A program made the position numbers and the translations under genes. Shown here in pieces: positions 33,389 to 52,973 of a stretch of DNA of 56,551 nt (its first letter is position 1; every line of letters begins with the position of its first letter). The notes under the pieces were generated by a model, which did not search any database, had not been told where the DNA came from, and saw only the letters and a program-made list of their open reading frames with translations. Source of the stretch: a virus; the IMG/VR virus record IMGVR_UViG_3300021138_001866, positions 1 through 56,551 of that record; one strand, given 5' to 3'.

Positions 33389-33400
33389 AAAGGATATATT

Positions 33401-36797: not shown

Positions 36798-36836
36798 CAT
36801 TGACCTTTTTGAATATTTAACGTCATTATAATAGCA

Positions 36837-36873: not shown

Positions 36874-36880
36874 AAGGTAT
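36862..36880. promoter_or_regulatory. 19-bp palindrome over the -10 box
   Basis: ATACCTTAT, one base, ATAAGGTAT: perfect 9-bp arms enclosing the -10 hexamer. This is a classic operator position for a repressor. Confidence 0.65.
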
Positions 36881-36900
36881 ATTTCTAATAGAGGATAACA

Positions 36901-38673
36901 TTGAAAGTAAATGACTATATTGCCCAAAGGCTAAACCAAGCCGGTGTTACCAAAGTGTATGGATTAGTCGGTGGTAGTACCGCAGGATTAAATGACGGGT
37001 TTATTAAAAATCCCAATATTGATTTTATTGCTTTTCATCACGAACAAGGTGCTGGACATGCTGCAGTAGGTTCAGCAAGAACAAATAATCGACTAAGTGT
37101 CTGTAATGTCACAGCCGGATGTGGTGTAACCAATGCTATGACCAGTTTGTTAAATGCCTACGAAGAAAGTGCGCCAGTGTTATTTCTCAGTGGTAATACA
37201 GCCATGAGCAATCAGGCCAAGTACATTAATCGTAACAAAGGCATACAGATTAGAAAATACGGTATCCAGGACCTAGATGCTCTACAGACTGTCAAGCACA
37301 TTTGCAAATATGCTGTGGCCATTGAGCGAGCCGAAGATGTTCCTTACGCATTAGACTGTGCTATATATCTGGCTGAATCTGGTCGCCCGGGTCCAGTCTG
37401 GATTGACGTTCCTGGTAACCTGCAGTCTGCAGAAATACCCGAAGGATACCCAATATACCAGCCCACTGACAGCAATACTACAGATTCTGCAGAAGGATTT
37501 CCTGGTGCATTAGAAATAATTCAAAATTCACTGCGTCCGGTAATTGTTGCCGGTAATGGTATTAATCTTGGCAACGCTAGAAGTCAATTTAGAAAGTTTG
37601 TTGATAGGTATCAAATTCCGTTTGTGACAACATTCTTATCGCGAGATCTAATAGCATACGAGCATCCACAAAACCTGGGCATGATTGGAGTTAAAGGTGC
37701 CCGTGCTGCAAATTTTGCCATGCAGAACGCAGACTGTTTAATCATACTTGGCTGTTCCATGAATGTAACACATATTGGGTACGATACTAAAACATTCAGT
37801 CCAGCAAGTAAAAAAATAATGGTAGATATTGATGCTAATGAACTTGGTAAGGACGTATTCAAAGTTGATCTACCAATTAACGGTGATGTTAAAGATTTCT
37901 TTGACACTGTCGATTTAGGTTCTGAATACCAGGTTAGTTCTTGGGCCGCTAAGTGCCAACATTGGAAAACTATGTGGCCCATATATGATCCTGAGGTACA
38001 TAGATCTGACGAAGGCGGATTGAACCTGTATGAAATTGTGGAAAGTATTAATCGCAATATGCAACCAAATGACTGCTTTGTTGTAGATGCAGGCCAGCCC
38101 TGTTACGTTCTTTCCAGCAATGGCAAGTATAAAGAAAATTGTCGTTATATGGCACAGGCCGCACAGGGTGATATGGGCTATGCTGTTCCAGCATCCGTAG
38201 GCGTTCATTTTGCCGATCCCGAATTAAATATCACATTAGTCATCGGCGAAGGTAGTTTTTATACTAACTTACAAGAACTAGCAGTAATCAGACAACACAA
38301 TATTCCTGTAAAGATCTTTGTGATCAATAACGATGGCTATATGAGTATTAAACAAACTCAAGACAAGTTTTTTGGCGGACGACGTTGGGGCGTCAGCAAT
38401 TCAACCGGAGTTTATTTTGCCGACATTGGTAAAATTGCAACAGCATTTGAAATACCTTATGTTAAGATCTCCAATAACCAAGAGCTCGATCAACAGATGA
38501 GTAGTCTGCTACGTGCTACTACTCCAATTATTGTTGAGTTTATAAGTCAAAATACTCTTGATGTATTACCTGCACAGGCATTTAAACCAGATGGTCTGCA
38601 GGGCGGTCTACATGATATGTCTCCGTTTTTACCACAGGCAGTACTTGACCAAGAAATGATTGTTCAAATATGA
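36901..38673 (+). CDS. thiamine-pyrophosphate enzyme, acetolactate-synthase-like
   Basis: 590 aa with a TTG start, supported by GAGGA five nt upstream. FHHEQGAGHAAVGSAR (about 46-61) carries the catalytic Glu of the TPP family. The TPP/Mg motif reads GEGSFYTNLQEL...FVINND (about 450-480), Glu where GDG is usual. Length and fold match acetolactate synthase. With an RfbH-like dehydrase in the same operon, a YerE-like role is attractive: YerE adds a two-carbon unit from pyruvate to a 4-keto-dideoxy sugar to make a branched sugar (yersiniose). The role is inferred. Overlaps the next gene by 4 nt. Confidence 0.8.
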   Translation: MKVNDYIAQRLNQAGVTKVYGLVGGSTAGLNDGFIKNPNIDFIAFHHEQGAGHAAVGSARTNNRLSVCNVTAGCGVTNAMTSLLNAYEESAPVLFLSGNTAMSNQAKYINRNKGIQIRKYGIQDLDALQTVKHICKYAVAIERAEDVPYALDCAIYLAESGRPGPVWIDVPGNLQSAEIPEGYPIYQPTDSNTTDSAEGFPGALEIIQNSLRPVIVAGNGINLGNARSQFRKFVDRYQIPFVTTFLSRDLIAYEHPQNLGMIGVKGARAANFAMQNADCLIILGCSMNVTHIGYDTKTFSPASKKIMVDIDANELGKDVFKVDLPINGDVKDFFDTVDLGSEYQVSSWAAKCQHWKTMWPIYDPEVHRSDEGGLNLYEIVESINRNMQPNDCFVVDAGQPCYVLSSNGKYKENCRYMAQAAQGDMGYAVPASVGVHFADPELNITLVIGEGSFYTNLQELAVIRQHNIPVKIFVINNDGYMSIKQTQDKFFGGRRWGVSNSTGVYFADIGKIATAFEIPYVKISNNQELDQQMSSLLRATTPIIVEFISQNTLDVLPAQAFKPDGLQGGLHDMSPFLPQAVLDQEMIVQI

Positions 38674-39470
38674 AAATAGCTGTTTTAGGTGCTCGTGGTT
38701 TTGTTGGATCCAGTCTGGTTAATAGCCTTAGTCGGGATCATGTAGTTTATCCATTGACCAGAGATGTTGTAGATCTACTAGATCCTGCGTCAGTTCGCAG
38801 TTGGCTACTGGATCGACATCCAGACGTGATTGTTAATGCTGCTGCTATAATGAAAGACCGAGACGGTCTAGGTGATACCAGAAACAATCTTGGCCTGTTT
38901 ATGAATTTTTATAATAATCGTGCTTTGTTTGGCAAATTTATTAATCTAGGCTCGGGTGCTGAGTTTGATACTGCCGCTGATATCGATCAGGTCACTGAAA
39001 GTCAAATCTTTGATCGATTGCCTGCAGACAGTTACGGTTTTGGTCAAAATATAAAAAGTCGTATCTGTGCTGACACTGATAATTTTTATACCGTTAGGAT
39101 TTTTAATTGTTTTGGCTTTGGAGAAATTACAACTCGCATATTTCCAAGATTTTTAAACCGTAGTGCTACACTGGCTGTAACTAATAATAGATACTTTGAT
39201 TACTTTAGCATACAGGATTTATGTTTGGTAATTGACCACTGTGTGGCTAATTCATGGACTGTTAAAGATGTCAATGCTGTTTATGAAACAAAATATTTAA
39301 TCAGTGAAGTATTAGCAAAATTCTGCACACTAAACAATTTAGAAAAAGATTTTGAAATTGTATCCGCCAGTGCCAACAACTATACCGGCAGTGGCGCTAA
39401 TCTAAACAGTCTTGGCATCAAACTCAAAGGTCTGGATCACGGACTCTCTAACTATCAAATAACATTATGA
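38670..39470 (+). CDS. NAD-dependent sugar reductase/epimerase, RmlD-like
   Basis: 266 aa. VLGARGFVGSSLVNSLS is the glycine motif; VINAAAIMKDRDG corresponds to the R/D-N-x-A block of RmlD-like enzymes. At the active site it reads SYGFGQNIKSR, so Tyr is kept but the Lys four residues on is Gln. In YerF-type chemistry a reductase follows the TPP step, which fits its place right after that gene, but the changed lysine is a reason for caution. Confidence 0.65.
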   Translation: MKIAVLGARGFVGSSLVNSLSRDHVVYPLTRDVVDLLDPASVRSWLLDRHPDVIVNAAAIMKDRDGLGDTRNNLGLFMNFYNNRALFGKFINLGSGAEFDTAADIDQVTESQIFDRLPADSYGFGQNIKSRICADTDNFYTVRIFNCFGFGEITTRIFPRFLNRSATLAVTNNRYFDYFSIQDLCLVIDHCVANSWTVKDVNAVYETKYLISEVLAKFCTLNNLEKDFEIVSASANNYTGSGANLNSLGIKLKGLDHGLSNYQITL

Positions 39471-40264
39471 AAATTACTATATCTGCACCAACAGTATTAA
39501 ATCAATTTGAATTTGCTCCTGATCGTCTTGATGTATTCCAAAGTAGCGTAGGCAATTATACTTTTGCCAGGACAGTCACAACATTTGATTGGCCAAACTC
39601 GCAGGTTTGTGTTGGCGACACCATACTAGGCCCTGGAGAAGATCCAAGAGCATTTGACTTATTTGGAACACCGGCCTGTTACTCGGTTCGCTTCAATGAA
39701 TGGGAACGATTTGTTCCTCAGCTGTTTATACAAAACGACGAAGACTGGATCTGTTTAAAACTTCAGTTAGCCGATGCTATCCCAGCAGGAAAGAATTGGG
39801 GACCATTTACCTATAACGGTGAAGTATATTTTGTGCATGAAATCAGTCCGTTTAGGGTATTAAACCTCACCGGAGACACAGTTTCTACAGCATTTACCGT
39901 TGATTTAACCACCGATATGATGCCTATTGATAACTACCCTTCACTGCGCGGTGGCTGTAACGGTTTAGACATTGGTGGAGGCCTGGTACTGGGCTTTGGA
40001 CATGATAACTATGCCAGCGATGCCAGAGATATCAACACCATACAACACCGACCTTATGGTTGGTGCATTGACATGAATAACCCGTCGGCCACTAAAATAA
40101 TCAATTTGGACTTTGAGTGGGATAATAAATATAAAATAATTGACCCAACAGCGTTTATCAAACAAGACGGAGAGTATTACTTAATGACTTGTGAAACTGA
40201 ATGGCAGTGGAAACAGTTAAATCAAACAGGGCGTAATTGCTTATACCCTATCAATATCAATTAA
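39467..40264 (+). CDS. predicted beta-propeller-like protein of the sugar operon
   Basis: 265 aa with no signal peptide. The start KITISAPTVLNQFEFAPDRL and repeating beta segments (GEVYFVHEISPFRVLNL, GCNGLDIGGGLVLGFGH, DPTAFIKQDGEYYLMTCE) recall five-bladed-propeller glycosidases and phosphorylases (GH43/GH130 clan), including the G-H-D-N-Y segment. I cannot place catalytic acids with confidence. Overlaps the reductase gene by 4 nt and is followed by the epimerase gene after 9 nt. Role unknown. Confidence 0.5.
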   Translation: MKITISAPTVLNQFEFAPDRLDVFQSSVGNYTFARTVTTFDWPNSQVCVGDTILGPGEDPRAFDLFGTPACYSVRFNEWERFVPQLFIQNDEDWICLKLQLADAIPAGKNWGPFTYNGEVYFVHEISPFRVLNLTGDTVSTAFTVDLTTDMMPIDNYPSLRGGCNGLDIGGGLVLGFGHDNYASDARDINTIQHRPYGWCIDMNNPSATKIINLDFEWDNKYKIIDPTAFIKQDGEYYLMTCETEWQWKQLNQTGRNCLYPININ

Positions 40265-40273
40265 GAGGAATAT

Positions 40274-41305
40274 ATGTTTTTTAAAAATAAAAGAGTTTTG
40301 GTTACAGGCGGTTGCTGTTTTATTGGCAGTTTTTTAGTTGAAAGTCTGCTGGCAGATGGTGCAGAAGTCACAGTGGTAGATGACCTTAGCAGTGGTAAAA
40401 TTGAAAATATCAGCGGTGTTCGAAATCAAATCGATTTTGTATTAGGTGACCTGCGTGATGCTGCAGTTGCTCGAGAAGTTACTCAAAATAAAGACATTGT
40501 ATTCCACCTGGCCAATATACACGGAGGACGTGGATTTATTGAAACACACCCAGGAGAAATTAGTCAAAACTTCCTAATCGATGGTAATGTATTTTATTAC
40601 AGTCACTTGAACAAGGTTGATCGTATAGTATATACTTCAAGTGCCTGTGCTTATCCAACTAACTTACAGGAAGATGGACCGGACCAACAACGCTACCTAA
40701 GCGAAGAAATGGCAGATCCATTTACCAAAGGTGCTGCACTCAGTGATGGCGAATACGGTTGGGCCAAGTTCATGGGCGAAATGGCTCTTAAAGGATATCA
40801 CAAACAGTTTGGCACTAAAGGTGTAAGTTGCCGACTATTTACTGTATATGGTCCGCGTGAAAACGAAAGCCACGCTATTATTGCATTTATTGCCAAAGCC
40901 ATGATCGAACAAAATCCATATGAAGTCTGGGGTAGCGGACAACAAGATCGTAACTTTACCTATGTAAGCGATATTGTTACAGGACTAAAACTATCCTGCG
41001 AAAAGATCACTGACTGTCGCAGTATTAATATTGGTACCAGCGAAATTACTAAAATTGCCGACGCTGTACAAACAGTGTGCGACATTATGGGCTACAGCCC
41101 CAGCGAAGGATTCTTCTTTGATCGTAGCAAACCAGAAGGCGTACACGCTCGTGCGGCTGATACTCGTAATCAAGAATTGTGGTTAGGGTGGAAGCCTGAA
41201 GTGACGTTTAAAGAAGGCATTGCAAAAACCATTGAATGGTATCAGGCCAATCGCAATGCCACTGATCTTAAGAAAGACTTTGAGCGTAAACTATTCGAAC
41301 GTTAA
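40274..41305 (+). CDS. NAD-dependent nucleotide-sugar epimerase/dehydratase
   Basis: 343 aa. TGGCCFIGS (11-19) replaces the usual TGGxGFIGS; the active site EYGWAKFMGEMALKGY gives YxxxK; RLFTVYGPRENESH and GSGQQDRNFTYVSDI are typical of GDP-mannose 3,5-epimerase and UDP-glucuronate epimerase groups. Produces a nucleotide sugar for the glycan. GAGGAATAT precedes the ATG. Last gene of the plus-strand operon; it overlaps the convergent small gene by 4 nt. Confidence 0.85.
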   Translation: MFFKNKRVLVTGGCCFIGSFLVESLLADGAEVTVVDDLSSGKIENISGVRNQIDFVLGDLRDAAVAREVTQNKDIVFHLANIHGGRGFIETHPGEISQNFLIDGNVFYYSHLNKVDRIVYTSSACAYPTNLQEDGPDQQRYLSEEMADPFTKGAALSDGEYGWAKFMGEMALKGYHKQFGTKGVSCRLFTVYGPRENESHAIIAFIAKAMIEQNPYEVWGSGQQDRNFTYVSDIVTGLKLSCEKITDCRSINIGTSEITKIADAVQTVCDIMGYSPSEGFFFDRSKPEGVHARAADTRNQELWLGWKPEVTFKEGIAKTIEWYQANRNATDLKKDFERKLFER

Positions 41306-41566: not shown

Positions 41567-42277
41567 TTAGAATGATTTGCTGGCAGATACTACCAATGCG
41601 TTTTTGGTTAGGTCTAAACCGTTGATAGTATTACCACTAACAACACCAGAACCCAATGAACTATTTGTGTAATACTTGGCACTAATTGCCCAACCAGATA
41701 AATCGTATGTTGCACCAACATTATAATCATTATAATTTAATGTTGAGTTATTGGCAACACTGGTCATACCAGCATGAGCATTTAGTGTTATCTTAGCGGC
41801 AACTGGGAAGGCTACATCTGCTTGATAGTAACGTGATCCTGTGCTGTTTGCTGCACCAAAATAATCACTCACTGATTGACTTGCTTTAAGTGCAACTGGG
41901 CCACGTGAGGCACCAATGTAAACTTCGTTGGTGTCGAACCGAGCACCATTGGCGGCAGAGGCACGTGGATAGAGATAGTTGTAAGAACCAACGTCAAATG
42001 TAATTCCACCAAACTCTTTTTTGTATCCAGCATAGAAATCGCTTTCTAATCCTGCGCCGTTAGTGTACATCTGACTGCTAACTGAACTATTCCAGTTACC
42101 AATATAGAGTCCGCTTTTATCGGCAAAATCAATTCCACCTTGTACTGCTGGTGCCAATTGAGTTTGACTGATACCACGGAAGCGATAGTCGCTAGTTACG
42201 CCCAAGTTTGTTGAAACCTGCGCTTGTGCTACAGTTATACCTGCTACGATTAGTAATGCGGTTAATAATTTTTTCAT
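41567..42277 (-). CDS. outer-membrane porin-like protein (Gcw_chp/TorF type)
   Basis: 236 aa. Signal peptide MKKLLTALLIVAGITVAQA, then STNLGVTSDYRFRGISQTQLAPAVQGG in outline, the start of the Gcw_chp/TorF putative porin family of proteobacteria. The rest alternates polar and hydrophobic residues in beta-barrel style and ends in Phe (VSASKSF), as needed for outer-membrane insertion. A monocistronic unit with its own promoter, palindrome and terminator. A phage-encoded outer-membrane channel would change host permeability or surface; this is a rare cargo. Confidence 0.85.
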   Translation of the reverse strand: MKKLLTALLIVAGITVAQAQVSTNLGVTSDYRFRGISQTQLAPAVQGGIDFADKSGLYIGNWNSSVSSQMYTNGAGLESDFYAGYKKEFGGITFDVGSYNYLYPRASAANGARFDTNEVYIGASRGPVALKASQSVSDYFGAANSTGSRYYQADVAFPVAAKITLNAHAGMTSVANNSTLNYNDYNVGATYDLSGWAISAKYYTNSSLGSGVVSGNTINGLDLTKNALVVSASKSF

Positions 42278-42418: not shown

Positions 42419-44035
42419 TTACATCAAAAGACTGGATAAATCTATGCCTTGTTGCTCAAACCACTCAGATTGTGTGGGACTCTGTTTGGCTCTTAGGTAA
42501 TTGATGTCACTGAAGGATTTAAACCATTTATCTGCTATTTCTAAAGTAATTGGATCACTTTGACGACATCTACGTGCCATATCTATATTATAATATATTG
42601 CTGTATTGTAATAAAAATGATCTTGCCAAGGTCTAAAGGTGCCATCCCTCATCGAGGCCGGTGTGTGTTTGTAATCTGACAGTATATCAAATAAACGTTC
42701 TTTAAAATTGTTTTGCAAGGCTATATCATGATTACGTAGCCAGTAATTGCTACTGGATCTAGGTGCTAGTCCAAAACTAAAATCTAATCTTTCGCAAATG
42801 CTGTCTTGAGTTTCTAACAAAAAACGACTAAAATCCTTTGGTACATAATTACTGCCTACTGGATCATTTATAAATTTTATTAATTGTAGAATTTGTAATA
42901 TTTGCAGTAAAATGCCGCTGGCATCAAATGCGTCAACAAAACTTGATGCTAGACCTACTAGGCAATAATTTTTACTCCAGGAATTTTCATAACTACCCGG
43001 ATCCCATTTTACCACCAAAGGGTCATGCAATCTTGTATTCGAATCACTACTTTCGACCATTTCGTCTAGAGCCTGATCTACTGTTCTATCAGCTGAATTG
43101 AACACATATCCATAACTTTTTCTATCCAATAGTGTAATGTCAAATAACCAACCGTATTCCATTGCTGTGGCATTGGTAACAGTTATTAATGATTTTTTTA
43201 AATCTTCGGTTGTACGATGTCCATTTGCTATGATTACAGCAGTATTGTGCCGTATACCTGCAGATGCTGTACACCATTTTAAATTTAATTTATGCCCGAG
43301 TACTCTCTTAAAACCAGTACAATCAACATATAAATTACAATTAATTTCTCGACCCTGGTCAAGGAGCAAGGTACTAATAGATCCCGAATCGGTTAATTTA
43401 ATATCCTGCACTGTACCGGTGACCCAGGTATCAATGAGATTACCATATGTTTTTTTTAACCACTCACCAGTTTTAAAACTATTAAGATGTGTGCTAACAT
43501 AGTTATTACTAAAGCGATCTTCAACCCAATTTAATTTATTACCTTTATTGTACCAATAAAATGGGTCATGATGTGACTGGTAATCTTTGTAGTTAATTTT
43601 TCCAGCTTTATATAACTCGTACCATAGGTCATACAATTTATAAGCAGTATTGCCAGGTTCAAGCCAGCTCATTGGCATTTCTTCATCTGACATGTCATTA
43701 TTAAAAATAATTTTATGGTCGGGTGCCAGTCGCATTGGACTATAAAATCCCGAATCGTTCTTGTGCAGGAAATCTTTAAATTCAACACTATATTTGAGAG
43801 TACTACGAGATTCTGTTAGGAACTGGCTTAACCATTTGGGTTGATCGGCGTTAGATATTTTTAAAATTTTAATCATCCATCGAATAAACTCCCCAGGAGC
43901 AGATTCGCCAAATCCAGCATTCTTGGGTTCAACAGGACTATCAATTAAGGTAACGTGTGCGCGAGGACAGTTTTTCTTAATAGCGATTGCTGTAAGAATC
44001 CCAGTGAAACCCGATCCTATTATGCAAATTTTCAT
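42419..44035 (-). CDS. flavin-dependent halogenase-like protein (tryptophan halogenase family)
   Basis: 538 aa. CIIGSGFTGILTAIAIKK (residues 4-21) is the FAD-binding GxGxxG; NAGFGESAPGEF (39-50) matches the G-E-S-T/A segment beside the isoalloxazine; LVGLASSFVDAFDASGILLQ matches the G-x-A-x-x-x-x-P-x-x-S-x-G block near residues 320-340. Where halogenases have W-x-W-x-I-P the sequence reads GWLFDITLLDRKSYGYVF, so halogenation is not assured. Length is typical (about 500-540 aa). Such genes occur in marine bacteria and a few phages. Substrate unknown. Confidence 0.75.
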   Translation of the reverse strand: MKICIIGSGFTGILTAIAIKKNCPRAHVTLIDSPVEPKNAGFGESAPGEFIRWMIKILKISNADQPKWLSQFLTESRSTLKYSVEFKDFLHKNDSGFYSPMRLAPDHKIIFNNDMSDEEMPMSWLEPGNTAYKLYDLWYELYKAGKINYKDYQSHHDPFYWYNKGNKLNWVEDRFSNNYVSTHLNSFKTGEWLKKTYGNLIDTWVTGTVQDIKLTDSGSISTLLLDQGREINCNLYVDCTGFKRVLGHKLNLKWCTASAGIRHNTAVIIANGHRTTEDLKKSLITVTNATAMEYGWLFDITLLDRKSYGYVFNSADRTVDQALDEMVESSDSNTRLHDPLVVKWDPGSYENSWSKNYCLVGLASSFVDAFDASGILLQILQILQLIKFINDPVGSNYVPKDFSRFLLETQDSICERLDFSFGLAPRSSSNYWLRNHDIALQNNFKERLFDILSDYKHTPASMRDGTFRPWQDHFYYNTAIYYNIDMARRCRQSDPITLEIADKWFKSFSDINYLRAKQSPTQSEWFEQQGIDLSSLLM

Positions 44036-44669: not shown

Positions 44670-44754
44670 TGGTGGGCAAGGAGAGACTCGAACTCTCACG
44701 ATTTTACTCGCTGGAACCTAAATCCAGTGCGGCTACCAATTACGCCACTTGCCC
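44670..44754 (-). tRNA. tRNA-Leu(UAG)
   Basis: Acceptor GGGCAAG/CTTGCCC, anticodon arm CTGGA-TTTAGGT-TCCAG (anticodon TAG), variable arm CGAGTAAAATCGT, T-arm GAGAG-TTCGAGT-CTCTC, A73, CCA encoded. Every stem is fully paired. Its first 15 nt double as the last codons and stop of the HNH gene. Confidence 0.97.
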
Positions 44755-45198
44755 TTTTCTCTTCTCCCAGTGTAACTTAATACTCTCGGAGATTTTTTTC
44801 TTTTGATCCGCTGACTTTGGCTTATCTTTGTTTCCAGAACCGTGTGTGTTACCTTTCTTGCCTTTAGCGTTCATTCTACAGGCTTCTTCGTAACCATATT
44901 TCTCAACCATTCTGTCCCAAGGAGAAGTATTATGCCCTTGATCTAATCTATTCTCTTGTGCTGTTCCCCAATATAGGTGTTTTGGATTACTACACTTTTC
45001 ATTGTTACAGGCATGACATACATGTATCTTATGACCACTTGGTATAGTAGTATCCAATAAATGTGCCATTAGCCCTTTACAATAACTTGATAGTCCGCCT
45101 TTCTGCGGACCACCTCGTTCTACACACGGATCAGTTAAATCTATGTGCGTTTGTCTCTCTACCTTTGATTGTGTAATGTATTCTTCTATTAATAGCAT
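44740..45198 (-). CDS. HNH homing endonuclease inside a tRNA-Leu
   Basis: 152 aa from the ATG at 45198, chosen for the GAGGAG site eight nt upstream; an upstream open frame to 45507 runs through non-coding RNA and is spurious. HVCHACNNEKCSNPKHLYWGT carries the zinc-binding Cys and HNH core of the phage HNH_3 type, followed by ENRLD. A C-terminal LHWEKRKGQVA resembles NUMOD DNA-binding motifs and is encoded by tRNA-Leu sequence. Own late promoter at 45216-45223. Likely the agent of the insertion. Confidence 0.85.
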   Translation of the reverse strand: MLLIEEYITQSKVERQTHIDLTDPCVERGGPQKGGLSSYCKGLMAHLLDTTIPSGHKIHVCHACNNEKCSNPKHLYWGTAQENRLDQGHNTSPWDRMVEKYGYEEACRMNAKGKKGNTHGSGNKDKPKSADQKKKISESIKLHWEKRKGQVA

Positions 45199-45215
45199 TT
45201 TACTCTCCTCATGTT

Positions 45216-45223
45216 TATTTATA
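45216..45223 (-). promoter_or_regulatory. T4-type late promoter of the HNH gene
   Basis: TATAAATA on the minus strand, 17 nt before the ATG; lies within the sequence that splits the tRNA-Leu. Confidence 0.65.
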
Positions 45224-45245
45224 CTAAACATAAAGAAAACACTAA

Positions 45246-45277
45246 TATAGCGTGTATACCAATTCCACCATCTGGGC
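45246..45277 (-). tRNA. 5' half of the split tRNA-Leu
   Basis: Minus strand: GCCCAGA acceptor, TG, GTGG-AATTGGTATA-CAC D-arm, G26, CTATA anticodon-stem strand. The D-arm has the Leu pattern. GCCCAGA pairs perfectly with TCTGGGC, and CTATA with TATAG, of the 3' half at 44545-44589. Confidence 0.8.
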
Positions 45278-45282
45278 AAAAT

Positions 45283-45562
45283 GCAAACAGTTTGGGCACA
45301 TCTGTTTGCTTTACAACCGCGGACCCCAAACCCCCCAGACCGTCTCTGGGTCGGGCACATATCACAAGTACTGCTACCGTGCAAGCGGCTAAATGCGACT
45401 GTTGTACAAGGACTATAAAACTTTCGTGGCTTTAAAATATTGGCGCCGCTTCGGGGACACCCGATATTAGTATTATTCGAGCGACTTGAACTCTTGCAAT
45501 GCCACATACTGATTCTACCACTGGTATCAAACGGGCGTCACCCCTGTACCCAAACTGTTTAC
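45283..45562 (-). ncRNA. structured RNA of about 280 nt closed by a 17-bp helix
   Basis: On the minus strand the first 17 nt (45562-45546) pair with the last 17 (45299-45283) in one unbroken helix with two G-U pairs. Inside: GACGCCCG/CGGGTGTC (45532-45539 with 45456-45463), AAGCGGC/GCCGCTT (45445-45451 with 45383-45389) and hairpin CCCAGA/TCTGGG (45345-45350 with 45334-45339). A third copy of GTTTGGG (45324-45331) could compete for the 3' arm. Transcription should begin 5-8 nt before the helix. No coding potential. Not tmRNA, RNase P or a riboswitch I recognise; large phages place ornate RNAs (GOLLD, ROOL) beside tRNAs, but this one is smaller. Confidence 0.7.
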
Positions 45563-45604: not shown

Positions 45605-46849
45605 TTATATTTTCACAACTTTAAGTTTTTTATTTTCTACTGCAATTTTATTAGATTGAGTTAAATAATCTCTGTTTATAAATCCTGGTTGATTTAATTC
45701 TGCTGTACTTGGTCCTAAATAGTATAACGTAGAACAGTTTATGTTTAACCCAACCGGTTTTCCCAATTCATATGTAAAATATTTTGGATCAATTTTATGT
45801 AACAAAAAATTTAGTCCCGATTCCCACGCAGAATATAAATTAGTACCGGTTAAATTTGTATAAAACCAATGATCCATTTCGTTGTAAAAACTGTTTGTGG
45901 GTTTAACTGTTTGCCAAGTTTCTACATCATAATCCGGGTATATAATAGATTTTATAACTTGCTCATATGCAGTACGGCGAGCAGGACTGCCCTGTATTCC
46001 TTGAACAAGATGGCCAATATGCCGATTGTGAGGCATATCAAACCAGGTCTTGATTATATGTGCTTGTTTAGCCACTAGTTCAGGTAAGTCCGGAGTCCAA
46101 TAAAACAATTCTGTGGTAATATTTGTGTGATCACCTATTATAGGACATGGGTTATTTGCCTGTAAATCCATGAAGTACAAATACCACTTATTATCAATTA
46201 CAGCAAGTTTAGGTTTGTCAATACCGTGAAGCACACAGATCTTTTTGTTAGAATCTGCTAATTTACGCTGTTCTTGAGTATTAAAATTACCAAACTTGAT
46301 TCCGTGTCCAGGTTGAAACCAATCTCTGGTGGTAAAAACCCATGACTCGTCCCGCAGGTAGTCATCTTTTAATAAGTTTTCACTGTAATCCTGAATGGTG
46401 ATTTTTACCTGTGGATAGTTTGTTTTAATCCAATGTAGCAATGGTTCTGCTGCGTATTTTCTTTCACCTAGGGTATTTTCAGCTCGAGTATTCCACGGAG
46501 CATCAACAGAATCTTTATCCACCTGCTTTGGATATCTAAACATTACTTCGTCGATGTGTATGCCATTTAATAGAAAACTAAAAAGCGCAGTAGCACTATC
46601 ACCTCCGCCTGAACATTCTAATCTAATATAGTCATACCTATCACGTAATTGTTGGGCACGTTGACGATATAATTCTCGTAAATTAGTCTCAGGCTCACTT
46701 TCCCAATTAAATTTAGCAAACTCAATAGGATTAAACTGCCAATCTGGCAGTTCTCCTGTCTGTGTGGCATATATATAGGCGTCGGGTTTTAGATAAAAAA
46801 TTCTATTACCAACTCGATAATACCCAAGTTTAGAATTATGTTCAATCAT
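45605..46849 (-). CDS. PP-loop ATPase-like protein, paralogue 1
   Basis: 414 aa. LRDRYDYIRLECSGGGDSATALF places the PP-loop (SGGxDS, here S-G-G-G-D-S) at about residues 85-90, the ATP-pyrophosphatase motif of asparagine synthetase, QueC and TilS-type enzymes. A family-specific N-terminal region (KLGYYRVGNRIFYLK, WQFNPIEF) and the block ELYRQRAQQLRD are shared with the genes at 47948 and 49204. Later blocks: KKICVLHGIDKPK, YWTPDLPELVAKQAHII, NEMDHWFY. Such enzymes adenylylate a carboxyl or carbonyl group before adding N or S. Starts 4 nt after the TctC gene's stop, so the two are cotranscribed. Confidence 0.75.
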   Translation of the reverse strand: MIEHNSKLGYYRVGNRIFYLKPDAYIYATQTGELPDWQFNPIEFAKFNWESEPETNLRELYRQRAQQLRDRYDYIRLECSGGGDSATALFSFLLNGIHIDEVMFRYPKQVDKDSVDAPWNTRAENTLGERKYAAEPLLHWIKTNYPQVKITIQDYSENLLKDDYLRDESWVFTTRDWFQPGHGIKFGNFNTQEQRKLADSNKKICVLHGIDKPKLAVIDNKWYLYFMDLQANNPCPIIGDHTNITTELFYWTPDLPELVAKQAHIIKTWFDMPHNRHIGHLVQGIQGSPARRTAYEQVIKSIIYPDYDVETWQTVKPTNSFYNEMDHWFYTNLTGTNLYSAWESGLNFLLHKIDPKYFTYELGKPVGLNINCSTLYYLGPSTAELNQPGFINRDYLTQSNKIAVENKKLKVVKI

Positions 46850-46852
46850 CGA

Positions 46853-47758
46853 TTAATCTAATTTGACACCAACGGTTAAATTAGTCCAATATCGATTTTG
46901 ATCATCCCACCAGGCTGGTAAATCTTTTTCTGACACTTGAAACGGTTCGCAGTAATCTGGTGCATAAGAGTCACGTACAGATTTTTTATTTTCTACCTTT
47001 AACAGTATTTCGCGTATTTCGTGTGCTTTTTCCTCGGAAAATGAACGTGGCACCATGAGGTTATAGGGAGTATTCATTTTTGCCAGTGTAGGAGAAAAGC
47101 CCTGACTTGATAAATTAGGATACTGTGACACATACTTAGGGCCAGTTGTCCCAAGAATAACAAGTTTATTTTTAGAATTTTCACTGGTAAATTTTTCTAG
47201 GTCACCGACAAATCCAACTGCCAGGTCGACCTGTTTGCCCATTGCAGCTAATAAAGCATCAGTAGTACTTTTAAAAGGAATTACTCTGGCGTTAGGATAA
47301 TTTTTTATAACAGCCAGTGCAGTTAAATGACTAACAACCCCAAGTCCGCTAGTAGCAATAGTAACAGGACTATCTTTAGGAACTTCTTTCCATGTACTAT
47401 ATTTTCCCGATGCTACTGCAAAAGGAACACTACATTGTGTCATAATAGTTCTCATTTCGTGTACATCATAACTTTCTGTAGGATAAAAATTAGGTCTTAC
47501 CCAGTAAGCACCCGATGTCATAAAAATAGTATTAGGTGTATTTTTTATGTAATTAAATGCTACAACCTGTCCGGCACCAGGCCTGACGTCAAAAAGAAAA
47601 TTATATCGATCTTGAATTTTATTGGCTTCTTCGGCCAAGGTTCTGGCATAATTTGCACTATTATCGCCGGCACTAAATCCGTAAATAATTGTAATATTTT
47701 CTCGCGCCTGTGCAGTTAATGCGAAAAATGTAAGTAAGATTGCTAAAAATTTTTTCAT
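46853..47758 (-). CDS. TctC/Bug-type periplasmic solute receptor 1
   Basis: 301 aa. Signal peptide MKKFLAILLTFFALTAQA. The mature part follows the tripartite tricarboxylate transporter receptor fold: ITIIYGFSAGDNSANYARTLA, DVRPGAGQVVAFNYI (the R-x-G-A/G-x-G ligand loop), PTESYDVHEMRTI, VTIATSGLGVVSHLTAL, ALLAAMGKQVDLAVGFVGD. These proteins bind carboxylates or small amides in the periplasm. No TctA/TctB membrane genes are nearby, so it must use host transporters or act alone. Consensus promoter at 47779-47807. Confidence 0.85.
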   Translation of the reverse strand: MKKFLAILLTFFALTAQARENITIIYGFSAGDNSANYARTLAEEANKIQDRYNFLFDVRPGAGQVVAFNYIKNTPNTIFMTSGAYWVRPNFYPTESYDVHEMRTIMTQCSVPFAVASGKYSTWKEVPKDSPVTIATSGLGVVSHLTALAVIKNYPNARVIPFKSTTDALLAAMGKQVDLAVGFVGDLEKFTSENSKNKLVILGTTGPKYVSQYPNLSSQGFSPTLAKMNTPYNLMVPRSFSEEKAHEIREILLKVENKKSVRDSYAPDYCEPFQVSEKDLPAWWDDQNRYWTNLTVGVKLD

Positions 47759-47778
47759 AAAATCTCCATTGAAGTATA

Positions 47779-47807
47779 AGTTTACGATGTTACTCGTAAT
47801 TTGTCAA
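47779..47807 (-). promoter_or_regulatory. sigma70-like promoter of TctC receptor 1
   Basis: TTGACA, 17 nt, TAAACT on the minus strand, about 20 nt before the start at 47758. Confidence 0.7.
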
Positions 47808-47809
47808 GT

Positions 47810-47945
47810 TAAATTGCTTGTAGGAATCTACTTACGGAAATCGGCGTTCTAGGTGTATCACACTAGTAAAAGAGTTTTGCTACTCTAGGCGTCAATGTAA
47901 ACCCGACGTCGGACGACCCGGCGTTGCTTAAATTATTTATTACAG
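47810..47945 (-). other. hairpin-rich intergenic stretch
   Basis: The gap between the PP-loop gene ending at 47948 and the promoter at 47779 has no gene. It folds into several stems on the minus strand: CCGACGTCGG palindrome, AGAGT...ACTCT, and CTAG-TGT...ACA-CTAG, with AACGCCG present twice. Could be a terminator region or a small RNA. Confidence 0.4.
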
Positions 47946-47947
47946 TA

Positions 47948-49144
47948 TTAAAAACGATCTTTTAATTCAACTTCGTATCTTTTATTAGTCTGTGTGTAGT
48001 GTGCTGGCCCTATATGATAAAATGGCGTTAAAAACCCAACAAATCCCACAACACGGTCAAATTCTATATTAAAGTATTTGCGATCTATGTTCTCTTCGAC
48101 AAAGTTTATACCAGCCATCCAACTTTGATAAAGTTTATGATCTTTGTATTGACTATAAAACCAATAGTCCATCTCACTATAAAAATTAGTACCAGGTTTG
48201 GCAACTTGAAAAGTTAAATGATCATAGTCGGGGTATACCAATGGTTTAATTGTTTGTTCGTAGGCAGTACGTTGAGCATTACTGTGGTTAGGCCAGCGAG
48301 CTAAAAATTGTAAATGTTGATTAGCAGGTGTATTAAACCAATTGCGTATGATGTGTGCTTGTTTTACTGTAAGAGTAGGAAGGTCAGGAGTCCAAAAGAA
48401 ATATTCGTTGGTAATATTTGAGTACTCACCTATGTCGGGATTAGCATAATTAGCCTGAAAGTCAATAAAATATGCGTACCATTGGTTATCTTTTATACAC
48501 AATTTTGGCTTATCTATGCCGTACAATATACAGATCTTTTTTCCTGTGTCGGCTAATAGTCTATGACCAATGGTTTGGTAATTGGTAAATTTAGTAACGT
48601 GCGCCGGTTGTAAAAAATCCTTGGCTGCGTACACCCATGATTCATCTCTATCAGAATCGGCCAACATATCAGCTGAGTAGTCGTGTATAGTTATTTTAAT
48701 ATCAGGATAGTGTGTAGCTAACCAATTAAATAAAGGCCTGGTGGCAAATTCATATTCGCTTAAATGGTTTTCTGTATTATAAGAAAGTGACACCGGTACC
48801 TTGCCTTTACCGGCTTCAGGAAATCGAAATACAATTTCATCTAATTTTATATTGTTTAATAAAAAACTAAACAAAGCCTGTGTGCTGTCACTTCCGCCCG
48901 AACACTCTAATCTAATGTAATCGTATTGGTCGCGTAGTTGCTGAGCACGTTGACGATATAATTCTCTAATATCAATATCTGGTTCAGTATGCCAATCTTG
49001 AGCTTGATAAATTTTATTGTTAAAATCCCAGTGCGGAAATTCATTGGTCTTGGTTGCATCAATAAGGGCATTTACTTTACTGTAGTGAATGCGGTCACCT
49101 ACAGTATATAGGCCCAGTTTTTGGTTTTGTTCTAGAGTTATCAT
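47948..49144 (-). CDS. PP-loop ATPase-like protein, paralogue 2
   Basis: 398 aa. PP-loop in YDYIRLECSGGSDSTQALF (S-G-G-S-D-S, canonical). Shares blocks across its whole length with the gene at 45605: QKLGLYTVGDRIHY, DIRELYRQRAQQLRD, KKICILYGIDKPKL, FFWTPDLPTLTVKQAHII, AYEQTIKPLVYPDYDH, SEMDYWFY. Internal Asp/Glu positions match, so all three paralogues probably act on related substrates. No signal peptide; cytoplasmic. Confidence 0.75.
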   Translation of the reverse strand: MITLEQNQKLGLYTVGDRIHYSKVNALIDATKTNEFPHWDFNNKIYQAQDWHTEPDIDIRELYRQRAQQLRDQYDYIRLECSGGSDSTQALFSFLLNNIKLDEIVFRFPEAGKGKVPVSLSYNTENHLSEYEFATRPLFNWLATHYPDIKITIHDYSADMLADSDRDESWVYAAKDFLQPAHVTKFTNYQTIGHRLLADTGKKICILYGIDKPKLCIKDNQWYAYFIDFQANYANPDIGEYSNITNEYFFWTPDLPTLTVKQAHIIRNWFNTPANQHLQFLARWPNHSNAQRTAYEQTIKPLVYPDYDHLTFQVAKPGTNFYSEMDYWFYSQYKDHKLYQSWMAGINFVEENIDRKYFNIEFDRVVGFVGFLTPFYHIGPAHYTQTNKRYEVELKDRF

Positions 49145-49203
49145 TGGCAGTTAAAATTTAGTATTATGCATTTTTATAAAACAGGTTGGTATATTTTATT
49201 AAT

Positions 49204-50346
49204 TTAATCAACCCTGCCAACAAACCAATGCGGGCTATCGTGACCTTTAATTCCTTTATTATTAAGTAAAGGGTCTAAAAATGAAGGATCTAGGTTGTTG
49301 GTTAAAAAGTCTATTCCAGCATTCCAGTTCTTTATAAGTTTGGTATTTTTAAATTGCCTAGTAAACCATAGGTCTAGTTCGCTTTCCCAATCTAACATTG
49401 GTTTTTTAACCTGGAACCATGTGGTGTCCCAGGTGCTAGAATAAATTATACGCTTTAACAAAATTTCTTGTGTTGCACGATCGATCATCAGTTGCGGATA
49501 AAACAATGGTATATATTTAGGATTTTGTTTGAAGTATTTTAATATAACATGAGCTTGTTTAACTAACATATCACAAGATTCTGGTGACCAATAAAAGTAC
49601 TCTATCTCAGTATTGGTATAGTCAGCAAAGTGTTGAGAAATAGGCGTAATATTTGTAAGTTTATCAAAGAAATACAGGTAAAGTTCATTGGTACGATTAA
49701 CATATATCCTAGGTTTATCTGTACCAGTTATTATAGCAATACTTTTATAATGATCAAACCTATTATGTAAATTTTTCATCCCAATATAATTATATCTTTG
49801 TATTACAGCCGGATTAATAGGATCTTTATAATCAAGTACCCAGGATTCGTCTTGAACATTTTTAAAATAATCAATTATAGCACGACTACAATCAAAAAAT
49901 GTTATTTTTGTAGCAGGCATATTGTCGGTGATCCATTGCAATCGTGCTCGAGTATGAAGTTCATATTCGGCATTAGAATTCCAGGGTGTGGTTATTTCTT
50001 TATCAAGTATAGTAAAATTTTTTGTTGCTTCGAGAACCCAATTAGTTACAATTTCGTCTATATGCAGTCCTTGCCGATAAAAGCTCATTAAGATATTATT
50101 ACTGTCGCTACCGCCACTATAGCTTAATATAATGTAATCATATTTTTCTCTAAGTTCTCTGGCACGTTGGTCGTACAACTCATCTAAAGATTTTTCAGGT
50201 TCTTGAGCCCAATTAACCGCATTAAATATATTGTCGTTGAAAATCCACTGAATTGATTGTTTTATTTCAGTTGCGTAAAGATACGCTTGAATCTTGCTTT
50301 CAAATTCTTTCCCATTGCAAAAATAATAGCCTAGTTTTTTATTCAT
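49204..50346 (-). CDS. PP-loop ATPase-like protein, paralogue 3
   Basis: 380 aa, the most diverged copy. PP-loop in YDYIILSYSGGSDSNNILM (canonical). Shares KLGYYFCNGK, LDELYDQRARELREKYDYI, SIAIITGTDKPRI, YWSPESCDMLVKQAHVIL and SELDLWFT with its paralogues. Start overlaps by 4 nt the stop of TctC receptor 2 (ATGA-type), so like paralogue 1 it is coupled to a receptor gene. Function unknown. Confidence 0.75.
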   Translation of the reverse strand: MNKKLGYYFCNGKEFESKIQAYLYATEIKQSIQWIFNDNIFNAVNWAQEPEKSLDELYDQRARELREKYDYIILSYSGGSDSNNILMSFYRQGLHIDEIVTNWVLEATKNFTILDKEITTPWNSNAEYELHTRARLQWITDNMPATKITFFDCSRAIIDYFKNVQDESWVLDYKDPINPAVIQRYNYIGMKNLHNRFDHYKSIAIITGTDKPRIYVNRTNELYLYFFDKLTNITPISQHFADYTNTEIEYFYWSPESCDMLVKQAHVILKYFKQNPKYIPLFYPQLMIDRATQEILLKRIIYSSTWDTTWFQVKKPMLDWESELDLWFTRQFKNTKLIKNWNAGIDFLTNNLDPSFLDPLLNNKGIKGHDSPHWFVGRVD

Positions 50347-51248
50347 TGTTGTTTAAGTGAATTTAGTTTTTCTGGCCAATACTTTGACCATTGGGTATAT
50401 AAAATATCGGTATCTTTAAGATCAACGTCTGCACGACTGCATCGATCAGCGTCATATAATTTTTGTAGATCTGGTGCTGTGCGAGCAGCTTTGCGTAAAA
50501 TTTCATGTAACTCTTTTCGTACTGATTCTTTGACTGTAATAGGCACTACCATTTGATAGTTACCAACCAATCCAGTAAATCCTTTTGTACCTTGACTATA
50601 CCATGTCTGTAATCCAGGATACTGCCTAGTACCGCTGGCACCAATTACCGAGATCTTTCCTATTTTTTCAAACTGTTCTATATCGTTTGGCAAACTGACA
50701 TTCAGATCTAATCTTCCAGCTAACACTTCTTGTAATCCTGACATTGTACCATTATAACCAACTAGTGTTAGGTGTGTATCTGGCAATAAGGTCTGTAGTT
50801 CTCGGGCAACAGCTTCGGTTAAACTACCATAAAGTACACCAATGGTTATATCTTTTTCTTTGCGTAAATCTTCTAGTGATTTATATTTTGTACTAACTAT
50901 GCTGTATGGCTGCCCTGTACACTCAATTAGTACTGGTTTAAAATCTGCTATATTATAACTTTCAGTTGGATAAAACACTGGACGTATAAAGTAACTACTG
51001 CTATAACTTAAAATAGAAATACCGTTATAGGATAATACATATTTGGCAGCAATAGTTCCGCCAGCTCCTACTTTGTTATCATAAACAAATGTATATTTGG
51101 TTTGGTCTTTATTGGCTTGATCAATTATAACTCTAATATAATTTGCCTGTGCTGATCCAGTGGCAGCTGGCCAAACAATAGGCACTACCTGCCCAGCTCG
51201 AACCGAGAGTGAAATAAATGCCAATGCAATAGCGATTATTTTTTTCAT
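50343..51248 (-). CDS. TctC/Bug-type periplasmic solute receptor 2
   Basis: 301 aa, the same length as receptor 1. Signal peptide MKKIIAIALAFISLSVRA. Mature blocks: VVPIVWPAATGSAQANYIRVI, YDNKVGAGGTIAAKYVL, YPTESYNIADFKPVLIE, DITIGVLYGSLTEAVARELQ, LQEVLAGRLDLNVSLPND. The ligand loop G-A-G-G-T is kept, but pocket residues differ from receptor 1, so ligands may differ. Cotranscribed with PP-loop paralogue 3. Confidence 0.85.
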   Translation of the reverse strand: MKKIIAIALAFISLSVRAGQVVPIVWPAATGSAQANYIRVIIDQANKDQTKYTFVYDNKVGAGGTIAAKYVLSYNGISILSYSSSYFIRPVFYPTESYNIADFKPVLIECTGQPYSIVSTKYKSLEDLRKEKDITIGVLYGSLTEAVARELQTLLPDTHLTLVGYNGTMSGLQEVLAGRLDLNVSLPNDIEQFEKIGKISVIGASGTRQYPGLQTWYSQGTKGFTGLVGNYQMVVPITVKESVRKELHEILRKAARTAPDLQKLYDADRCSRADVDLKDTDILYTQWSKYWPEKLNSLKQQ

Positions 51249-51257
51249 TGTAAATGT

Positions 51258-51286
51258 ATTATATTTTAAAATTTATTTTAAAGCAA
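51258..51286 (-). promoter_or_regulatory. sigma70-like promoter of TctC receptor 2
   Basis: TTGCTT, 17 nt, TATAAT on the minus strand, 9 nt before the start at 51248; very short leader. Confidence 0.6.
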
Positions 51287-51290
51287 GAAC

Positions 51291-51313
51291 GATAGCGACT
51301 AATAGTCGCTATC
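51291..51313 (-). terminator. perfect 10-bp hairpin after the diiron gene
   Basis: GATAGCGACT-ATT-AGTCGCTATC on the minus strand, 8 nt past the stop at 51322, followed by a weak T-rich tail. Likely terminator; the palindrome could also bind protein. Confidence 0.6.
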
Positions 51314-51321
51314 TGGACAAT

Positions 51322-52014
51322 TTAATGTAATTCAGACATTGGGATATGTTGTTTGATGCAACGTAGATCCCATAACACTTCTATAAATTGGTTGGCAAGA
51401 TTTTGAGCACGAGCTTGTACTTCTGGATCAACTACCAACTTTTCTAGTTCAGCACGACCTAAACTTGCATGAAATTTCTCATCTCGGGCAATTTCGGCAT
51501 ACTTTTCTGCGATTAACGCATTAGGAGCACACTCGGCCTGCATCACCCAGTTACGATGTGCCATACCTTCGGCAATGTATTGGTATACTGCTAGTGCAAG
51601 TGGATCTTCGCTACATTCAAAACGTTCTAATAATGTAGCAGGACGAATAGTTTCTTCATCATTATTTAATTGTGCTTGACGTATACCTTCTTCGATGGCA
51701 ACAATATTAATAGGCTCACCGGCCATGTCTTCGACAATTTCTTTTAAGAACCAAAAATGTTTAGCTTCATCATGTGCTTGTTTGCTTAACAAGAACATAT
51801 CTTCCGGGCTAGTGTCCATAGCACATTTAGAAACACGCTTAGCCAACTGTATACAATTGATACGTTCGTTAATCATACGACGACTAAAGTAACCGATCAT
51901 TTCTTCACGACTTGGGTTAGATTCGAAGTATGATTTTACACTCTGCTCATGAAACTGATATAATGGTTCGCAATCTTGTGCTAATTTTGCTGTAAATTCT
52001 TTTGCATTTAACAT
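51322..52014 (-). CDS. ferritin-like diiron protein (TenA/AurF-like oxidase)
   Basis: 230 aa, all-helical. Metal-ligand pattern: E50 (INERINCIQL), DEAKH at 82-86, E149 (YIAEGMAHRNW), DEKFH at 178-182, the E-ExxH-E-ExxH signature of ferritin-like diiron enzymes. Members hydroxylate, N-oxygenate or desaturate small molecules. The start overlaps the TRAP-like gene's stop, so the two are made together. Two paralogue groups exist with this fold (haem-oxygenase-like TenA and ferritin-like); the DExxH pairs favour the latter. Substrate unknown. Confidence 0.75.
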   Translation of the reverse strand: MLNAKEFTAKLAQDCEPLYQFHEQSVKSYFESNPSREEMIGYFSRRMINERINCIQLAKRVSKCAMDTSPEDMFLLSKQAHDEAKHFWFLKEIVEDMAGEPINIVAIEEGIRQAQLNNDEETIRPATLLERFECSEDPLALAVYQYIAEGMAHRNWVMQAECAPNALIAEKYAEIARDEKFHASLGRAELEKLVVDPEVQARAQNLANQFIEVLWDLRCIKQHIPMSELH

Positions 52015-52973
52015 TATTTTTTTCCTGCAATAATTTGATTTAATAGACCTGGACTAAAGTAACTATCTAATGCTGTATATAATCCTTTAGTAGCAGTAAC
52101 AAACTTTGCTTTTTCTTTACTGGTCATTTTGATTGTGGCAATACCCTGTTTAGTGGCCTGTGCTTCAACAATTAGGTTGTCTGCTAAACTATCTTCGCGT
52201 TCAATTTTAGCAGCTCTCATTGCAGCACAAGAAAATATTTGTTGTACTTCTTTGCCTAACGATTGCCATAGTTGTTCGTTTATAACTAAACTTGTTAAAA
52301 ACAAACTATGCTCGTTGTCATTGATGTAATTGGTATGCCGGTCTTGTTCTAGTATGAAATAACGTGTGTATGTTGTTTCGCCGCCGACAATGTCACCGCT
52401 GGCTAATTTTTTAGTAATATCTTCAATCATTACAGGAATTGGATTAGCACCAACAGCTTTGATAGTACCAATTGATACTGGATTATTAGTACAACTGAGA
52501 TTCAATCGATAAAAATCTTCTAATGTTTCAATTGCCTGTTTGCTTGGGATAATTTTAAAACCACCGCTATAAGTAAATGTTAATCCACGAATGTTGCTGT
52601 GTTCTGCAACCTTGGCCAATAAATGTTGTCCAATTGGGCCATCGATGATATTACTTGCTTCTGTGTGATCATTGAACAAAAATGGCATAGCCAAAGCATT
52701 AATATCTTTGTCAATTTTACCTAGCGTACTGGCATAAACAGTGGCTAAATCAATAGTACCGTTGTCAATTAAACTGATAATTTTTTCACGATCTGTGGTA
52801 TGATTTGTTAAATTTGTATGTGCTAATTCGTTCCACTCTTTGAGACTAACAACATTAATAGTGTATTGACCATTGGTTTCTGCGGCTACTTCTGCAGCAA
52901 AACTTTTAGCTGCTTTAATAAAAACATGGTATGGCTCGTGAGCTAGTACCCAGTTTAATGTAAATTTTTGCAT
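52014..52973 (-). CDS. TRAP DctP-type solute-binding protein without signal peptide
   Basis: 319 aa. Matches mature DctP proteins from the first strand: KFTLNWVLAHEPYHVFIKAAKSFAAEVAAETNGQY, IDNGTIDLATVYAS, INALAMPFLFND, GLTFTYSGGFKIIPSK, GDIVGGETTYTRYFI. The start at 52973 (GGGAG ahead) lies directly at mature-domain position 1 and nothing upstream encodes a signal peptide, so it stays in the cytoplasm. The usual Arg contact near residue 150 (R-x-P/K) is altered. It might bind a small acid substrate for the diiron enzyme encoded next. Confidence 0.75.
   Translation of the reverse strand: MQKFTLNWVLAHEPYHVFIKAAKSFAAEVAAETNGQYTINVVSLKEWNELAHTNLTNHTTDREKIISLIDNGTIDLATVYASTLGKIDKDINALAMPFLFNDHTEASNIIDGPIGQHLLAKVAEHSNIRGLTFTYSGGFKIIPSKQAIETLEDFYRLNLSCTNNPVSIGTIKAVGANPIPVMIEDITKKLASGDIVGGETTYTRYFILEQDRHTNYINDNEHSLFLTSLVINEQLWQSLGKEVQQIFSCAAMRAAKIEREDSLADNLIVEAQATKQGIATIKMTSKEKAKFVTATKGLYTALDSYFSPGLLNQIIAGKK

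Follow-up and report, generated by a model that had tools for sequence, protein, structure and literature searches.

The DNA analysed here, referred to throughout as the window, is the whole 56,551-nt stretch of the IMG/VR virus record IMGVR_UViG_3300021138_001866. Between positions 45605 and 52973, its minus strand carries seven ORFs encoding three PP-loop proteins, two TctC receptors, one DctP-fold protein and one diiron-type protein; the ORF coordinates bear out the place and order that an earlier note had given these genes. At the upstream end lies the DctP-fold gene (52014–52973; TRAP solute-binding, PF03480, Pfam 2.9e-43), whose product has no signal peptide and is predicted to be cytoplasmic, followed by the gene for a four-helix diiron-type protein (51322–52014), so assigned from its ligand set and a sub-threshold rubrerythrin match. 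Then come TctC-2 (50343–51248; PF03401, 6.7e-10), a tripartite tricarboxylate transporter (TTT) receptor with a signal peptide; PP-loop-3 (49204–50346), an N-type ATP pyrophosphatase-like protein with an SGGSDS motif; PP-loop-2 (47948–49144), with the same motif; TctC-1 (46853–47758; PF03401, 4.2e-8), again with a signal peptide; and PP-loop-1 (45605–46849), with an SGGGDS motif. TctC-2 overlaps PP-loop-3 by 4 nt and PP-loop-1 starts 3 nt past TctC-1, in agreement with the earlier claim that each TctC gene is coupled to a PP-loop gene. A promoter-like site, a consensus match only, is present directly upstream of TctC-1 (47807–47779).

The island extends past these limits, with two further minus-strand genes in its recurrent neighbourhood: one for a tryptophan-halogenase-family flavoenzyme (42419–44035; PF04820, 1.2e-45) and one for a Gcw_chp/TorF-type outer-membrane porin with a signal peptide (41567–42277; PF09694, 1.1e-45). 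The porin gene is 3.3 kb from the seven-gene island, and a homologue lies beside the island in 5 other contigs. The window also codes for DnaB-type, UvsW-type, GroEL and tail genes, as well as aminotransferase, DHQ-synthase-like, TPP-enzyme and aldolase genes, and has tRNA genes about 1 kb from the island.

Protein families of the island

The two TctC proteins score 33.5 and 39.4 bits against PF03401 (cut-off 27). Export is predicted from a hydrophobic N terminus in 97% of 96 dereplicated phage TctCs, which are only 20–28% identical to plasmid-borne homologues. In beta-proteobacteria it is normal for TctC receptors to be orphans, lacking a permease of their own (PMC5812351), and such orphans are common in the family (PMC5812351, PMC5994714). 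TctC could act through binding alone, and its family is the one pointer to a beta-proteobacterial host.

The DctP protein of the window is a full-length family member that aligns to solved TRAP receptors. The earlier note had called it a cytoplasmic binding protein, and the family supports this prediction: none of 81 dereplicated phage DctPs has an N-terminal hydrophobic segment. TYSGG, Arg201 and His219 (L012 numbering) are invariant across the phage proteins, and in about ten contigs the protein is split at the hinge. The arginine of the TRAP carboxylate clamp, present in 64 of about 80 relatives, is replaced in the window protein (by Ser in the alignment), so that the ligand of this DctP may not be a carboxylate. 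DctQ and DctM are absent from the island, and neither was seen among the annotated recurrent neighbour families.

PP-loop-1, PP-loop-2 and PP-loop-3 are paralogues, the other two being 52% and 35% identical to PP-loop-1; PP-loop-2 served as the reference of the family alignment. The SGGxDS pyrophosphate loop is present in 113 of 120 dereplicated PP-loop proteins. No family match was found for the three proteins in Pfam, NCBIfam or PDB, and alignment against PDB sequences returned zero matches. Their relatives number 351 in viruses and 4 in 84,980 cellular genomes. One cellular match lies on a short phage-like contig inside a Methylococcaceae MAG; the other three lie on Bacteriovoracaceae contigs, adjoining S-adenosylhomocysteine hydrolase-like and RpiB-like genes (identified by eye). 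We considered these neighbourhoods as a source of function, and all four lacked a functional clue. A few members match QueC weakly. A second phage PP-loop family, which aligns with the first by hhalign (95%, 52 columns), has weak matches to LarE, NAD synthetase (NadE), TilS, QueC and AsnB at the SGGxDS motif, and pairs with DctP in other phages (26/59 dereplicated loci).

The diiron protein has the ligand set E50, E83xxH86, E149 and E179xxH182, invariant in 8 dereplicated relatives. This E, ExxH, E, ExxH series on four putative helices fits a ferritin-like diiron protein, and the rubrerythrin-like Pfam match (3.6e-4) falls under the curated cut-off. MiaE-like tRNA hydroxylation was rejected as its function, a family match being absent. 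The family is widespread in phages rather than tied to the PP-loop set, and about half of the sampled dereplicated members lie near TctC, TctA, DctP or PP-loop genes.

Linkage across viral contigs

The earlier note had proposed that a co-occurrence survey could refute any meaning in the arrangement. We surveyed dereplicated IMG/VR loci, and the linkage held: 59 of 65 PP-loop loci have a TctC or DctP gene within 3 kb, and 50/60 TctC loci and 38/46 DctP loci have a partner. Strands agree in all 59 linked PP-loop loci, and matches around the PP-loop gene fall from 62 per kb to 2–3 beyond 3 kb. The median gap is −4 nt where TctC precedes PP-loop (23 pairs) and 8 nt in the opposite order (32 pairs). 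The pairing of TctC with PP-loop as a repeated unit likewise recurs across dereplicated contigs, the TctC-1–PP-loop-1 pair in 7 and the TctC-2–PP-loop-3 pair in 4, the window included in each case.

Clusters of these families occur in hundreds of further viral contigs of up to 374 kb, and the families recur in 98 distinct gene orders. The survey confirms that the island is a real cluster, beyond chance. Its genes sit on bona fide viral contigs and are rare in cells, as in a phage auxiliary metabolic gene cluster; the carriers are large freshwater phages in which the gene set is much shuffled yet tightly clustered. Among the isolate phages of INPHARED there were zero relatives of PP-loop, TctC-1 or diiron proteins, and DctP matches were weak, many in bacterial-looking records.

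The idea that the genes came together by accident, at a hotspot piling up unrelated auxiliary genes, can draw on the many relatives that hold the island at one place, between phoH and lysis-type genes, by shared descent. Against this stand the sharp fall of linkage with distance, the agreement of strands throughout, the coupled start and stop codons and the 98 orders, together with the recurrence with a second PP-loop family in other phages. Because the linkage exceeds hotspot expectation, we reject accidental clustering, which we regard as most improbable.

Permeases and other neighbours

The earlier statement that no membrane transporter genes accompany the set holds for the window, where neither ORFs nor Pfam matches revealed TctA or TctB permease genes, but fails for relatives. 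TctA is encoded in 19 dereplicated relatives (PF01970, 6e-34), where it adjoins an exported gene resembling those of solute-binding proteins (SBPs), and in some relatives an MFS permease gene adjoins DctP; TctB was identified in neither window nor relatives. In L020, L021 and L022 the halogenase gene is flanked by a PP-loop gene on either side and overlaps each by 4 nt. Other neighbours in relatives include 2OG and TauD oxygenase, sulfotransferase-like, methyltransferase-like, asparagine-synthase-like and glutamine-amidotransferase genes. NAD-synthetase-like genes lie about 5–7 kb off in five loci; uptake of NAD precursors, as by Bug27/Bug69 (PMC11452294), was rejected because most loci lack them.

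A proposed uptake-and-activation module

Capture outside and ATP-dependent activation inside is the reading that the anatomy favours, and the porin and TctA genes of relatives strengthen it. A phage-encoded uptake-and-activation module for a small molecule is our best explanation, at close to even confidence. The sequences establish the gene identities, the export of TctC versus the retention of DctP, the conserved linkage and the conservation of catalytic motifs; from these we infer the direction of flow, the adenylation chemistry and the role of DctP. During infection, exported TctC receptors would capture a periplasmic small molecule, perhaps helped by a phage porin in some phages, including that of the window. 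A carboxylate is the likeliest ligand, this being the class that TctC proteins usually bind. TctC would hand it to a TctA-type permease, phage-encoded in some relatives and here assumed to be the host's, since no inner-membrane permease is encoded in the window. Once in the cytosol, the ligand would be adenylated by the PP-loop enzymes at the expense of ATP, with release of PPi, and joined to a nucleophile such as an amine. DctP, lacking a signal peptide, may bind substrate or product there, whether as a carrier, as a partner subunit or as a binding protein turned enzyme. Tailoring would be optional and fall to interchangeable enzymes: the diiron protein, the halogenase, 2OG-Fe(II) oxygenases, sulfotransferases and methyltransferases. 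A more specific version, which we regard as speculative and on balance doubtful, is a two-compartment uptake-and-ligation pathway in which a binding protein moved into the cytosol came to work, as enzyme or carrier subunit, with a virus-specific PP-loop ligase fed by exported TctC receptors. If true, it would be a kind of metabolic system for which cells offer no known example.

The same genes could instead make a tailored small molecule (an inhibitor, a signal, or a group on virion glycan or DNA) rather than serve nutrition, with TctC supplying a precursor, PP-loop enzymes forming an amide or related bond and tailoring enzymes decorating the product. The halogenase, oxygenase, sulfotransferase-like, methyltransferase-like, asparagine-synthase-like and glutamine-amidotransferase neighbours are of the tailoring type, and the aminotransferase, DHQ-synthase-like, TPP-enzyme and aldolase genes of the window fit such biosynthesis. 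However, no NRPS/PKS, export or self-resistance genes were seen, and the tailoring genes differ among phages while PP-loop, TctC and DctP persist; we judge this reading unlikely, at roughly one chance in four.

A lower probability still attaches to interference or sensing, in which TctC would vie with the receptors of the host for TctAB, and a metabolite would be sequestered or sensed by DctP in the cytosol, for uptake shut-down, superinfection control or counter-defence. That the window lacks a permease, and that a cytosolic DctP cannot deliver to a periplasm-facing one, agree with this; the permease and porin genes of relatives point toward more uptake, and the PP-loop enzymes are left unexplained. 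PP-loop enzymes include many tRNA thiolases and lysidine synthases, and with tRNA genes nearby and weak QueC matches in a few members, the PP-loop proteins (TilS/TtcA/QueC-like) and the diiron protein (MiaE-like) might modify tRNA or DNA, the SBP genes being unrelated cargo. The 4-nt coupling and the linkage to SBP genes across two PP-loop families argue against this, as does the failure to find an RNA-binding domain, and we think it very unlikely.

Should the uptake-and-activation module work as proposed, these phages would alter which dissolved organic acids their dying hosts take up, and the island would yield new ligases of the PP-loop type and, in a receptor that turned from periplasmic to cytosolic, a natural experiment. 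The set is present in hundreds of aquatic phage contigs, its core enzymes fall outside the families of Pfam, NCBIfam and PDB, and the orphan annotation 'TctC in a phage' becomes a testable pathway.

Comparison with known systems

The earlier note knew of no phage system with this set, and the literature that we searched likewise yielded no published description of it, nor any phage module of receptor and PP-loop enzyme. Phage-encoded PstS is a periplasmic binding protein supplied by the phage during infection, and in this the island resembles PstS and other auxiliary metabolic genes; PstS, however, is a single gene, for phosphate, and is not known to have a cytosolic receptor or a PP-loop partner. 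A viral TTT membrane gene has been seen in SUP05 viral contigs, as a single protein-domain match to tctA for which no clustering with PP-loop or DctP genes is described (PMC4164917).

Unlike a complete TTT transporter, the window lacks TctA and TctB genes, and unlike a TRAP transporter, the island has no DctQ/DctM and its DctP is not predicted to be exported. Phage TctC shares its Pfam family, signal peptide and PGAG motif with the TctCBA/Bug receptors of Bordetella, but is phage-borne and coupled to a PP-loop gene. Phage DctP has the fold family of the TRAP receptor DctP/SiaP, from which it differs in lacking a signal peptide, in its own invariant residues and, sometimes, in being split at the hinge. 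Finally, the phage PP-loop proteins have SGGxDS in common with the N-type ATP pyrophosphatases (AsnB, beta-lactam synthetase, QueC, NadE and LarE), but PP-loop-1, PP-loop-2 and PP-loop-3 have an N-terminal region of their own and are essentially confined to viruses.

Gene content of the island

ORF positions bear out the seven genes that the earlier note had placed, in this order, on the minus strand. A DctP-fold protein (52014–52973; TRAP solute-binding protein fold, PF03480, strong Pfam match) has one base in common at its junction with a diiron-type protein (51322–52014; rubrerythrin Pfam match below the cut-off), and these are followed by TctC-2 (50343–51248), PP-loop-3 (49204–50346), PP-loop-2 (47948–49144), TctC-1 (46853–47758) and PP-loop-1 (45605–46849). 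Both TctC receptors have Pfam matches (PF03401), and their proposed coupling to PP-loop genes holds, with a 4-nt overlap for TctC-2/PP-loop-3 and a 3-nt gap for TctC-1/PP-loop-1. The three PP-loop proteins are paralogues of one another and gave no family match in Pfam, NCBIfam or PDB sequence searches.

Within 3.3 kb of the island lie a Gcw_chp/TorF-type porin gene with a signal peptide (41567–42277, minus strand) and, on the island's strand, a Trp-halogenase-family gene. The 56.5-kb window, a viral record, also encodes a DnaB-type helicase, a UvsW-like helicase, Mtd_N-type tail genes and a full-length GroEL (Cpn60; 25813–27432). An HNH homing-endonuclease-like ORF (44740–45507) directly follows PP-loop-1 and adjoins tRNA-Ser and tRNA-Leu genes, and positions 31104–41305 encode successive enzymes of sugar/cyclitol type (epimerases, DegT aminotransferase, HpcH/HpaI aldolase, DHQ-synthase-like, SDR and ThDP enzymes).

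Linkage across viral contigs

Co-occurrence elsewhere had been set as the test against an accidental arrangement. IMG/VR was scanned with PP-loop queries (25 loci from PP-loop-1, then the best 80 of 351 relatives), DctP (best 80 of 464), TctC (79 loci from 89 relatives), the diiron family (best 80 of 250) and PPb, a second phage PP-loop family (best 80 of at least 461); the loci taken are the closest relatives. Among them, after dereplication, linkage held: TctC or DctP lay within 3 kb of the PP-loop gene in 59 of 65 PP-loop loci, on the same strand in all 59, and a partner lay within 3 kb in 38 of 46 DctP and 50 of 60 TctC loci. Matches to TctC or DctP fell off by successive kilobase from the PP-loop gene (62, 41, 14, 2, 3, 3, 2).

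Common descent accounts for part of this linkage. Nevertheless, the many orders, the coupled pairs and the recurrence with the other PP-loop family favour the view that selection has acted on the gene set as a set. Pooling all loci gave 98 distinct gene orders of island families; TctC>PP pairs overlap (median gap −4 nt, 23 pairs), and PP>TctC pairs have a median gap of 8 nt (32 pairs). Counting the window, TctC-1/PP-loop-1 is kept as a unit in seven dereplicated contigs and TctC-2/PP-loop-3 in four. DctP lies within 1.5 kb of PPb in 26 of 59 dereplicated PPb loci (among the best 80 of at least 461), often with PPb directly after it. One contig (L312:2563–8550) carries five PPb-family genes in tandem.

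The diiron family, with its complete ligand set (E/ExxH/E/ExxH), is a wider phage family extending beyond the island; any one of TctC, TctA (the TTT permease), DctP, PP or PPb lies within 3 kb in 28 of 52 dereplicated loci (among the best 80 of 250). A second island type, on other viral contigs (L344–L356, L377, L401), joins the diiron gene to TctA (and TctC) and to sulfotransferase-like and methyltransferase-like genes.

Relatives of the island add TctA (PF01970, 6e-34; 19 after dereplication), with a solute-binding protein (SBP) or PP-loop gene within 3 kb of 17 of 33 TctA genes and an exported SBP-like gene directly after TctA. Further additions are an MFS permease, a DUF2061 small membrane protein adjoining DctP, 2OG and TauD oxygenases, and sulfotransferase-like and methyltransferase-like genes. 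Porin homologues adjoin PP/TctC in five other contigs (L008, L011, L025, L040, L086), PP-loop genes flank the halogenase on both sides in L020–L022, and an NMT1/phosphonate-binding-like SBP-fold protein without a signal lies between PP-loop and TctC genes in L001 (7918–8901). By eye, this last protein is similar to an enzyme with the SBP fold, 4,5-dihydroxyphthalate decarboxylase.

PP-loop proteins and compartments

Of the 120 PP proteins left after dereplication, 113 have an unbroken SGGxDS motif. Their putative membership of the PP-loop superfamily rests on this motif and on an indirect profile link: PPb weakly matches known PP-loop enzymes (LarE, NAD synthetase, TilS, QueC, and GMP and asparagine synthetases, at SGGxDS), and PPb in turn aligns with PP in a profile comparison (95%, 52 columns). 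The sole clearly cellular relatives found are divergent homologues (25–29%) in three Bacteriovoracaceae contigs (L179, L180, L181), each near S-adenosylhomocysteine hydrolase-like and RpiB-like genes. An NAD-synthetase-like gene (SGGIDSAVVS) lies about 5–7 kb upstream of the island in L008, L045, L066, L067 and L074.

A hydrophobic N-terminus is present in 97% of 96 dereplicated TctCs, the three exceptions looking like over-extended start calls, and in 0 of 81 dereplicated DctPs, which start with the mature N-terminus or close to it (..IRWVLAHEP..). Some ten contigs (L017, L019, L025, L030, L038, L039, L046, L047, L049, L051, L082) have a DctP gene broken at the hinge into two ORFs, which overlap by 4 nt (ATGA) or 17 nt and have a conserved junction, MKIRTNRNPVAQ, with the second ORF beginning MKIRTNRNP; L046 has two C-terminal halves in succession. 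Export is hard to square with these split genes, which fit a cytosolic DctP. About 80 phage DctPs share invariant W8, H12, T131–G135 (TYSGG), R201, H219, E255 and R256 (numbering of L012 8060–9007); the conserved carboxylate-clamp arginine of TRAP receptors is kept in 64 of them and replaced in the window's DctP.

Proposed function

A typical PP-loop enzyme activates its substrate by adenylating a carboxylate or amide oxygen, then swaps AMP for a nucleophile. TctC ligands are mostly carboxylates (PMC5812351), so that the two functions fit together. Orphan TctC receptors without their own permease are typical (PMC5812351). Inward flow is the only reading that employs all parts of the set, and we put it at just short of an even chance. 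A substrate would pass from porin to TctC to TctA (the host's, for the window phage), then to cytosolic DctP and the PP-loop ATPase, with oxidation, halogenation and sulfation as optional last steps. The same anatomy would serve a biosynthetic purpose, a different aim that we regard as unlikely. Under inward flow, DctP may be a carrier, a ligase subunit or a receptor turned enzyme, for which other SBP-fold enzymes provide precedent.

Comparison with known phage systems

Full-text search of openly accessible journal articles returned no description of a PP-loop/TctC/DctP set, in keeping with the earlier note, which knew of no described phage system of this kind; the only match was a single tctA domain in SUP05 viral contigs (PMC4164917). 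The island is a new variant of auxiliary metabolism in phages, widespread and with core enzymes specific to viruses, and possibly more than that.
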